From assembly GCA_028622995.1 (NCBI GenBank), contig JAJQJQ010000033.1, positions 1,922,001 to 1,986,000 of the forward strand: a stretch of 64,000 bases of DNA, written 5' to 3'. The stretch's first letter is position 1. Each line of letters starts with the position of its first letter. The translations under genes and the position numbers were made by a program. This document shows, one piece after another, positions 52,332 to 56,921 of this stretch. The notes beneath the pieces were generated by a model. That model was given only the letters and a program-made list of their open reading frames with translations, did no database searches and was not told the DNA's origin. Source of the DNA: Panagrolaimus kolymaensis. Its lineage: Eukaryota > Nematoda > Chromadorea > Rhabditida > Panagrolaimidae.

Positions 52332-55300
52332 ATGATCGAAAACTCATCTGGTTTGAGCATTAGAACTGAACGTAATGACGAACATTCAATGCACGTCGAC
52401 TCAAATACCCCTGGAAGAAGCAGTAGCAGTAGTCCATCATTTACTGATACTCCGAACCATGATAAAGCATCGTCAAATCCTCCAGTATTAAAAAATGAAG
52501 CTTGTGAAGAAGAAAATCAAGTGAAGTCTGACGCAAAACCATCAATAAAAGAAGATCCTGATGTGTCTGGAAATCATAATGGTGAACTGGAAGATTCTAA
52601 ATCTGGTGATGTGGATAACATTGAAGATATTCAAGCTTATTTACGAACAAATGGTTGGGAATCACCCAAGTCTGTTCCTGAAAGCGGTCAAGTCAAACCT
52701 CGTATTGAACCACCACCTGGAAAACCAACAAAGCATACAAATCAACTTGATTATCTTTACAATACAGTAATTAAATCCATTAAAAAACACAATCATTCAT
52801 GGCCTTTTATGAAACCTGTGGATACTGTTGCTCTTAATATACCTGTTTGTTACTTTTTATATGTATTTACTTTTATTATCGTTTTTTAGGATTACTTTGA
52901 AGTTATCAAGCGTCCTATGGATATTGGAACTATTGAACAACGTATAAGACAGAAATATTACATCAATGCAAAAGAATGCTTAAAGGTTGGTATTTATTTT
53001 TATAAAAATTGCTAGCCAAATTTGATTTGCTTTTGTATATTTCTCTACCTGCGCACTAGTTTGTTTTTTATGCACTCTTCGGAATAAGCCTTTTTGTGGA
53101 TTCTTTTTTTTCTGCGCAAAAATACGTTTTGGTTAATAAAGAAAGACATCGTTTGTTGAATCTCGAAAGTTTTGAATTCCCATAAATTGGTAAATTTCGA
53201 AGTCACTTCATTGTTTTATTAGTATTGTTTTGTGTTTGGGTGTTCTTTCTTTTCGAATACTTTTTTCACCAACCGATGTCTTTCTTTTTCTAGGACCTTA
53301 TGACGGTCTTCACAAATTGCTATACTTTCAACAAACCACATTACGGCGTGTTTAAAATGGCGCAGACAATTGAGCAAACTATGCTTAAAAAGCTTGAGAA
53401 TATTCCAAATGAAGTAAGTCACCATTTTGTTTTTAGGATTTCGACCAAGTTTGGACCAACTGTCGTACTTTCAATGATCTAAGTTCTGATGTCGCACTTA
53501 TGTGCAAGAATGTCGAAAATGAATTGAAAAAATTTCTTATGTCAATGCCTCAACAGGTTTCGTCTTTTTGGGATTATCTTTTTTCGGAAAAATGTTTTTT
53601 TTATTGAAATTTTTTAATGTTAAATTCATATGCTTTGACTAATTTACTTTTTTTAGGAATACGTTGTAATTCCGCCATGGGAGAAAACATCTTCGAAGAA
53701 AAAGAAAAGTGGCCGTGTTAGTGTTGCTCCAAGAGGTAGCGTCAAAAAATCCCTTAGTCCATCTCCTAAAGAATCAACAGCTGCTGTTCTGAATTATCTT
53801 CACAATGCAACCGTACAAGGTGCTCATTATCATTGATTTAAGAGAAGAGCCATCCATAGGAGCACTTTTTTTAACCGAAATTTTTTACTAACATCACTAA
53901 ACCATTTCTAAAACATTTTATTAAAAAGAGCGTTGAGCACTTTGTACCGGTTGTATGGCTTCTCTTAGTATATTTCTTTAAGCTATTAAACCGTTGATTT
54001 TCAGCGAGTCGTGAACAATCTATTGCAAGTGCTACATCCGAATTACCGGGAACGAGTGAACTTCCACCAAGACCAGCTAAAAGAAAAGCCGAAGTTTCGT
54101 TTGCTGATATTGAAGCTCCACCTGAAAAGAAGATAAATCCTAACATCAAGAATAAACCACCAACTGATTTTTCAAATGAAAAACCAAAATATCATGGCAA
54201 GTTTACTCCACGAATGCACGGCTGTCAGAGAATTTTGAATGATTTCATGGCTAAAAAGAGTACCAAGGTTAGTTCATATTTATCATTTCACAACTAATCT
54301 TTCCGTTTTTAGTTCACTCAAGATTTTATGGTTCCTGTTGACGTTGAATTTTATCAATTGGCAGATTATTACGACAGAATCAAACAACCAATGGACCTTA
54401 CAACGATTAAAAACAAGTGGGATAATCGTCAGTATGCAAATCCAGAAGAATTTCACGATGATATGATGCTAATTGCTAAAAATTGTTCAGAATATAACTC
54501 TCCTGATACAAAAGTTTATCTAGCTGGAAAACAATTTTTAGTATGTTATGTTTTTTCTTTCGTAATGTAGTACATGCGCTTTCTTTTGCAGAAATGTTTC
54601 CAAGACCGATGGACTCGATTGCCTCCTGAAGAATTACCTCATCAAGAAATCGTACCTGAACCTACAACCAGTGTTCCTCATCAAGCTCCTCCTAAAACTC
54701 CATTATTAGAACATCCTCTAACTGTCACAACTTCTACTTCAGTTAATTCACCTGTAGATGATGATGATGCACTTGAATTAATAATGTTACGAGTTCAATC
54801 AGAACAAACCAAATTATCTGAAAGAGTTACTGAGTTACAAAAATATGCGCAAGAGCTTTTCAATTTGAAGATATTACGAATGAGTGCAAAGACTACCAAG
54901 CAAGCTGCTCCTTCACTTTCTGCTGAACATCATGCTAAAATTCAATCATTATTATCAAATTCATTTTTAACACCATTAGCAACTCCGAGTGTTTCAACGG
55001 CTCATATATTTACACCAAATATTGCATCATCTCAAAAGAAAGGAAAACCTGGTCGACCTCGTGGTAGTATAACTCCAGCAATTTCTACATCATCAGCTGC
55101 TCCATTTCCAGCTTTTCCTACTACTTCAGCCACTCCTGTAATTGAACAACCTGTACCTATATCTCAACCGCCGAAAACGGTAGTTTCTACACCTGCTCCT
55201 GCAACACCGTCTGCTGATAACTCCACAGTTCCTAAATCAAATAGAGGACGAAAGCCTGGTTCTAAAAATAAACCTAAGCCGGATCCATCTCAACCATCAT

Positions 55301-56921
55301 CTCGCGATGAATACGCTTTCATTTCCGACGATGAGAAGAGTATGGAGCCTATGACTTACGAAGAAAAACGTCAACTTTCATTGAATATTAATGAACTTCC
55401 TGGTGATCGCTTGACTAAGGTTGTTAGTATTATCGAAGCTCGTGAACAGCTCCATGATTTTAATCCTGAAGAAATTGAAATTGATTTTGAAACTTTAAAA
55501 CCTGTAACACTTCGTGAATTGGATGCCTATGTTTCTGCTGTTTTGAAGAAGAACAAGGGAAAGAAAGCAAACAGTAAGAGTATAACTTTTTCTTCCTATA
55601 TTTACTTTTATTATTTTATAGCTCCTCGAACTTCTGTGGATACTGAATTACGCAAAAAAGATTTGGAAAATCGCATAAGCAATTTGAGTGGTGCAAATCG
55701 TGGCGGTCCTTCTTCATCGACAGTAAATTCAAATCAATCAAATGGTGCCGAACCTACAAAACCTCCACCAAAAGAACGTCAAGATTCTTCAAGTGATTCA
55801 TCGTCAAGTGACTCCTCATCTTCCGATTCATCTGATTCTTCTTCAGAAAGCGAATCAGGTTAGATGATTGTTTGGGGCGAGCATAGAAAATGCATAAAGA
55901 ATGCACTTGTTTTTTGCTCTTATCCTTACCATAAACCGTAGCGGCCATCCTTCATTACTCATTAGTATAAAAGTTTCTTTTACATAAACTGCCATTCTTT
56001 TAAATCTCATTTTGTTATTTATTTTGTTTTTTGTTTTTACGGGATTGTAAGTAGTGCTTCTTTGTAACTAAAACTGCAACTCTTAACTTAAATTTATGCA
56101 TCTCATTTCCATCATTATTTTTCCTACTTAATTATTAATTGTTTAACGATCTCTTGTTTTTGTATTTGTATTTTTACCTTAAACAACCGCAGCGATTTGG
56201 GATTCATAATAAACGCTTTCTTGCTGCTCAATTTATGGGAAGCCTTTTAAGGCATTTGAATACACTTATTTAACATTTACTAAATTTCAGAGCAAGCAAA
56301 GGACTCAACTTCTAAGCCAAAACAACAAACAAAAGTTAATGGAAATGGTGATTCTAAGGTATATTCTGCTTTAACTCTTTTGTTGTTAATGCTTCATTAT
56401 TTAGAGTATTCGTCCAAATGGTGTTAATTCTCCTCAGCGTCCTAATCGTAAGTTCATTTTTCATGTTTATTTTTAAATTAACGCTGACATTTTTTTTTAG
56501 CTATTCGTCGATCACCACCAACAAATGGCCATATGGGAAATAAGGATAAGAAGGAAATGGTATGCAAAAAAGGATATATGAATGAACTTGTTTATACGTA
56601 TCGTTTTTTTAGAATACACAGAAGCCACGCATTCCTCCACCAACATCGAAACCACGTCAACCTGTACCTCAAACTAGTACAACACACACGCTTGATCCAC
56701 TTCATGGTCTACTTGATGACGATAATAGACCACCACCAAAGATTGAACGGCCTATCAATCCAAGTCGAAACAAAGAAAGTAATAATCGTGATGGCGAACC
56801 AAGGGTATGTTTTATTTTAATTTTATTTATTACACAAGAATAACTTTTTCATTTTTAGCAACAACATGTTGATCTTAGCAAACAAATTGAACTCATGGCC
56901 AACTTTGAAGATGACTTTTGA
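52332..56921 (+). CDS. bet-1: BET-family double bromodomain protein with duplicated BD1 exons and alternative C-terminus
   Basis: Exons: 52332-52844, 52890-52985, 53294-53413 (A), 53437-53556 (B), 53657-53819, 54005-54267, 54313-54540, 54592-55573, 55622-55858, then long-form exons 56291-56358, 56405-56447, 56501-56559, 56613-56804 and 56859-56921. BD1 has [19 protein letters not shown] and [14 protein letters not shown], then either exon A (TNCYTFNKP) or exon B (TNCRTFNDL). BD2 has [29 protein letters not shown] and [12 protein letters not shown]. The ET domain is [47 protein letters not shown] tail ends at TAG 55861-55863 if intron 55859 is retained (about 870 residues with one of A/B). Splicing gives about 1,000 residues ending [21 protein letters not shown] proteins read acetylated histones and recruit P-TEFb. 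Confidence 0.94.

Follow-up and report, generated by a model that had tools for sequence, protein, structure and literature searches.

Proteins of the BET family hold a central place among the readers of histone acetylation and are important drug targets, and animals usually diversify their readers through gene duplication. The closest described relatives of the gene considered here, human BRD4, Drosophila fs(1)h and C. elegans BET-1, resemble it in carrying two bromodomains and an ET domain, but differ in that here half of the first bromodomain (BD1) would be supplied by either of two duplicated exons, A and B. In C. elegans, the bet-1A, B and C cDNAs (PMC9835578) all carry the same BD1 DNA, and hence one common block of the B type, unlike the A/B pair here. 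Alternative exons that are never used together are described for nematode unc-32 (exons 4 and 7) and egl-15 (exon 5) in PMC3585155; they contribute segments of a proton pump and of a growth-factor receptor, whereas the pair described here falls in a histone-reading pocket and its members lie only 23 nt apart. With the docking and selector pairs of Dscam and with systems in which a polypyrimidine tract is hidden, a principle set out in PMC7404189, the locus has in common a statistically unusual intronic stem over one alternative acceptor, but it differs from Dscam-type systems in that only one hairpin is predicted and exon B shows no partner that would compete with it.

The window, a stretch of 64,000 nucleotides from Panagrolaimus kolymaensis, contains the BET gene with the following features.

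52332 to 55573, plus strand: coding exons 1 to 7 of the BET gene, from an in-phase spliced translation with Pfam bromodomain and BET (ET) domain matches
to about 56921, plus strand: 3' extent of the BET gene
52890 to 52985, plus strand: exon 2, the common part of BD1 upstream of A and B; its residues are the same in both proteins of strain PS1159 until the exon block begins
52986 to 53293, plus strand: intron before exon A, 308 nt, in which the three haplotype copies differ by 1 substitution over 307 columns, unique to the BET gene within the genome
53138 to 53160, plus strand: predicted 5' arm of a hairpin, half of an inverted repeat whose 23-nt arms are 91% complementary, with 14 bp perfect
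53265 to 53287, plus strand: predicted 3' arm of the hairpin, overlapping the polypyrimidine tract of the exon A acceptor
53294 to 53413, plus strand: exon A, encoding the end of helix B, the BC loop, which bears the acetyl-lysine Asn (codon 53330 to 53332), and helix C
53414 to 53436, plus strand: the 23-nt gap, in which exon A has its donor and exon B its acceptor
53437 to 53556, plus strand: exon B, encoding the same part of BD1 as A (Asn codon 53473 to 53475)
53657 to 53819, plus strand: exon 4, whose acceptor is common to A and B
54313 to 54540, plus strand: BD2 exon (Pfam PF00439, 70.2 bits)
54592 to 55573, plus strand: exon 7, with the ET domain (Pfam PF17035, 80.2 bits)

We regard the exon pair as real, old, conserved and most likely mutually exclusive, and consider it very probable that A and B arose by an old tandem duplication of the exon for the second half of BD1, are likely used exclusively and would give two readers with a common first pocket half and different rims. 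Membership of the BET family follows from two tandem bromodomains above the Pfam cut-offs (65.1 bits for BD1 with A, 69.0 for BD1 with B, 70.2 for BD2) and from the ET domain after BD2 in exon 7. According to the spliced translation, BD1 is encoded by exons 1 and 2 plus either A or B; the acetyl-lysine Asn is present in both exons, and binding to acetylated histone tails is predicted.

What the first-pass annotation had read from the letters was confirmed, its coordinates, lengths and phases included. Exons A and B are each 120 nt, in phase 0 at both ends, and hold 40 stop-free codons; a direct count gives 14 of 40 identical residues; the gap between them is 23 nt, with GTAAGT as donor and TTGTTTTTAG as acceptor; and the intron preceding A is 308 nt long. 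The two exons are thus adjacent, homologous and alike in length and phase, as expected of mutually exclusive exons, and their resemblance is not due to chance, since the ungapped BLOSUM62 score of 62 compares with 33 for the best of 200,000 shuffles of B. Usable splice sites flank both, with GT or AG present at all four ends, although the donor of exon B (GTTTCG) looks weak by eye. Every join from exon 2 to A or B and on to exon 4 is in phase 0. Among the AG-ending introns listed for this one gene, a comparison from which the last two listed intron ends, with no AG as typed, were left out, the shortest other than the gap is 45 nt. Retention of the gap shifts the frame and brings a stop at 53480; joining A to B, or skipping both exons, keeps the frame, so RNA decay cannot police those forms.

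The P. kolymaensis assembly is triploid, according to PMC10374039, and the BET gene is present in three genome copies (contigs C32, C1 and C6), as expected. The 93 bromodomain matches in the genome, many of them in sets of two or three with near-identical scores on different contigs, likewise fit triploidy. Exon A, the gap and exon B are identical in all three BET copies, and the region 52845 to 53556 holds 1 substitution in 711 aligned columns; by comparison, haplotype variation is 0.8 to 8.3% in the segments after B and 2.1% in exon 1. Over its 307 columns, the 308-nt intron differs among the copies by 1 substitution and by two indels, against 21 substitutions in 906 columns of the other introns counted. 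Because the low variation extends to intron 1 and exon 2, whose 45 and 96 columns are likewise unchanged among the copies, gene conversion may contribute to it. A transposon origin of the intron and its inverted repeat is not supported, the only genome matches, in a search that skips simple repeats, being the three BET gene copies.

The main indications of exclusive use come from relatives. Querying with the spliced A protein retrieved two BET proteins of Panagrolaimus sp. PS1159, P0003 and P0006, which are database entries and may be predictions. Both are 923 aa long, and their 29 differences in 923 residues all fall within residues 206 to 244, the exon block, one protein being of type A and the other of type B. 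Protein databases already contain both versions for this strain. An assembly artefact is unlikely, since three contigs and the proteins of another strain agree. The proposal that BD1 is built from mutually exclusive exons is strongly supported by this otherwise identical pair and by the recurrence of both lineages in chromadoreans, and on such comparative grounds we take exclusive splicing of A and B to be likely. Novelty had also been claimed: among the matches listed in a search of titles and abstracts of open-licence PMC papers, none described a BET gene with this arrangement.

How old is the pair? Searching related nematodes for a second copy of the exon, as had been suggested, revealed A and B types across chromadoreans. 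In a tree built from the 64 segments of 40 residues that were left after 12 identical ones had been merged (from 76), the 31 A and 24 B segments each occupy one side of a branch, with support of 100/99 and 100/100, although the columns are few and the branches long, as the tool warned. Segments were labelled B by a motif within the segment itself, every other nematode row being taken as A, so labels and tree share the same letters; a single row for C. elegans was entered manually, and Elaeophora, Globodera, Thelazia and Mesorhabditis belari, whose insert or partial A was misread at a fixed offset, were left out here and kept in the protein count given below. Exon A lies closest to the single versions of Trichinella and Trichuris, which have one version only, and B sits on a longer stem. 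Both versions are thus conserved as two lineages across chromadoreans: genera of clades III, IV and V have B, as does Plectus, and A likewise occurs in clades III to V. From this spread, the duplication appears older than the radiation of clades III to V and Plectus. The C. elegans bet-1 BD1 block, translated by eye from the cDNAs in PMC9835578, groups with B, and that all three of those cDNAs are of the B type may explain why the A/B pair was overlooked.

We propose that exon 2 would be spliced to either A or B and the chosen exon to exon 4. The first-pass annotation held that joining A to B should be sterically blocked, and from the 23-nt gap, which would leave the splicing machinery no room to act at its two ends together, we infer on sound grounds that A would not be joined to B. 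PMC3585155 counts close spacing among the causes of exclusive splicing. An RNA in which the gap stayed unspliced would shift frame, meet the stop and be marked for decay.

What would set the choice? The inverted repeat in the 308-nt intron is a significant stem at the putatively regulated site, none of 1000 dinucleotide shuffles having one as long as its perfect 14 bp, and neither arm varies among the three haplotypes. Taken as a whole, the intron folds only slightly better than shuffled sequence does (z -2.34, with 3 of 100 shuffles equally good). For exon A, the polypyrimidine tract is predicted to be 22% unpaired, compared with 45% for exon B and 48% for exon 4. We speculate that the hairpin hides the tract of A, so that B would be the default exon and A would be chosen once a regulator opens the hairpin. 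This hairpin over the exon A acceptor, predicted by folding and seen in one species, is a candidate switch. An alternative is that the hairpin exerts no control and that trans factors alone choose the exon, for example a CELF-type protein acting on the UGU-rich stretch at 53224 to 53244, and we give it somewhat less than an even chance. In C. elegans, UNC-75 selects the exclusive exons of unc-32 via a UUGUUGUGUUGU stretch, as reported in PMC3585155, and the UGU-rich stretch here lies in the hairpin loop. Yet the stretch is not the published UNC-75 motif, we treat its resemblance to the unc-32 site as a lead only, and a stem absent from all 1000 shuffles that sits on the acceptor of exon A speaks for the hairpin. 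The two flanking introns and the gap contain no RBFOX sites (TGCATG or GCACG).

What would the exchange do to the protein? The common exons 1 and 2 encode the WPF shelf and the ZA loop, while the Asn and the opposite side of the pocket come from A or B. The pocket difference proposed at the outset, FNKPHYG in A and FNDLSSD in B, is present, but the divergence, 26 of 40 residues in all, is wider than had been claimed and runs along helix C too. We use BRD4 residue numbers (137, 140, 144, 145 and 149), with the register taken from alignments to BRD4 BD1. In counts made without Ditylenchus, which has one extra residue, position 145 is Asp in 24/24 B, 9/9 outgroup and 4/30 A segments, and position 144 is Tyr or Phe in 24/30 A segments and Asp or Glu in 22/24 B and 6/9 outgroup segments. 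The rim is therefore mostly aromatic-Gly in A and mostly Asp-Asp in B. In P. kolymaensis, residues 144 and 145 are Tyr-Gly in A and Ser-Asp in B, where BRD4 has Asp144-Asp145; the Panagrolaimus B exon is atypical among B exons, with Arg at 137 and Ser (P. kolymaensis) or His (PS1159) at 144. The swapped residues include the one that separates BD1 from BD2 inhibitors in humans. Of the solved structures, BRD4 BD1 is the closest match whichever exon is used, with no gaps across the block. The predicted structure of the A-type PS1159 protein (mean pLDDT 46.4; BD1 helices mostly 73 to 86; ZA loop about 46 to 48) has the four expected BD1 helices and is uninformative on the pocket difference.

Both A and B look like functional readers with differing rims, and the consistency of the rim differences makes it plausible that BD1-A and BD1-B differ in histone-mark preference, as first suggested; A (Tyr-Gly) and B (Ser-Asp) would then bind different acetylated partners. 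We hold it possible, while leaning against it, that the exons are exclusive but form an on/off or structural switch instead, in which one BD1 reads weakly or not at all, or in which helix C contacts change and mark preference does not. The differences do run along helix C, and Panagrolaimus B carries its Arg at 137. In Bursaphelenchus xylophilus, the A-type block of P0160 has Cys at the Asn140 position and should not read acetyl-lysine in the usual manner, which also favours a switch of that kind. Against it, Asn140 is kept in 29/30 A and 24/24 B segments and Met149 in 30/30 A and 23/24 B segments, a retention that suggests binding by both.

We find it improbable that A and B are normally included together, which would give BD1 an extra 40-residue helix-loop-helix after helix C. 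The relevant counts come from 70 BET proteins, the rows whose names identified them as chromadorean among the best 9 of 9, 120 of 192 and 120 of 1306 matches, on which profiles of both exon types were run (second matches to the A profile, at 22 to 32 bits, are BD2). Among these listed matches, BD1 carries A only in 25, B only in 23 and the full A+B tandem in 14, while 3 have a partial A followed by B and 5 lack the block by the profile test. The tandem models, the in-frame join and the Pfam score of the joined form would favour joint inclusion. Pfam, however, cannot separate the exon arrangements, since all of them pass (A 65.1, B 69.0, A+B 76.9, neither 41.5 bits). Fold loss was dropped as an argument against the joined form, which could keep A as its working half. 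What does stand against joint inclusion is that the gap is about half the length of the shortest other listed intron, that one exon alone appears in 48/70 of these models and in each of the two PS1159 proteins, and that automatic gene finders blind to exclusive exons would tend to fuse both. Two models are visibly mixed, those of Steinernema hermaphroditum (scored A) and Ascaris P0151 (scored none), both of which hold the last residues of the B block.

Close relatives among chromadoreans often show opposite types: A in Bursaphelenchus xylophilus and B in B. okinawaensis, A in Pristionchus mayeri and B in P. fissidentatus, A in Parascaris and B in Ascaris, and A in Wuchereria and B in Brugia. 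The simplest reading of these pairs is that the genomes hold both exons and that each annotation took one or fused them. Meloidogyne incognita has one A and one B protein; with 25 of their 49 differences within the block, they also differ outside it and may be different gene copies.

That one exon is a relic, out of use in P. kolymaensis, is highly improbable: the Panagrolaimus B exon evolves faster (24/40 residues identical to PS1159, against 36/40 for A) and the three C. elegans bet-1 isoforms have one BD1 version (PMC9835578), yet A and B are open, spliceable and unchanged in three copies, and PS1159 has a protein for each.

Elsewhere in the gene, the 3' part of exon 4 (53736 to 53819) looks like an optional 84-nt cassette, which a same-phase GT at 53736 would drop. 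Its end motif, VLNYLHNATVQ, is without counterpart in both PS1159 proteins, and xVLxxFHNAT occurs in 16 of the 70 chromadorean BET proteins among the matches listed. Read-through of a likely donor after exon 8 (55859 to 55863) would give an early end in ...SESESG, with the stop at 55861 to 55863; the Enterobius model has a like ending, SDSESG, and a short BET isoform may be conserved.

Taken at its fullest, our proposal is that a switch as old as the chromadoreans swaps half of the pocket, replacing an Asp-Asp rim with an aromatic-Gly one at the site that tells BD1 from BD2 in human BETs, that the hairpin sets the choice, and that C. elegans appears to be B-only, hence the failure to notice the switch; we put this combination at slightly below an even chance. 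As for annotation, many nematode BET gene models would show a single reader where two are likely, or else fuse the two in a doubtful way. If the exon choice operates as proposed, one gene would gain reader diversity through an RNA-level swap of half a pocket, and nematodes would offer a direct test, in the living animal, of how the residues of the pocket rim set the targets of a reader.
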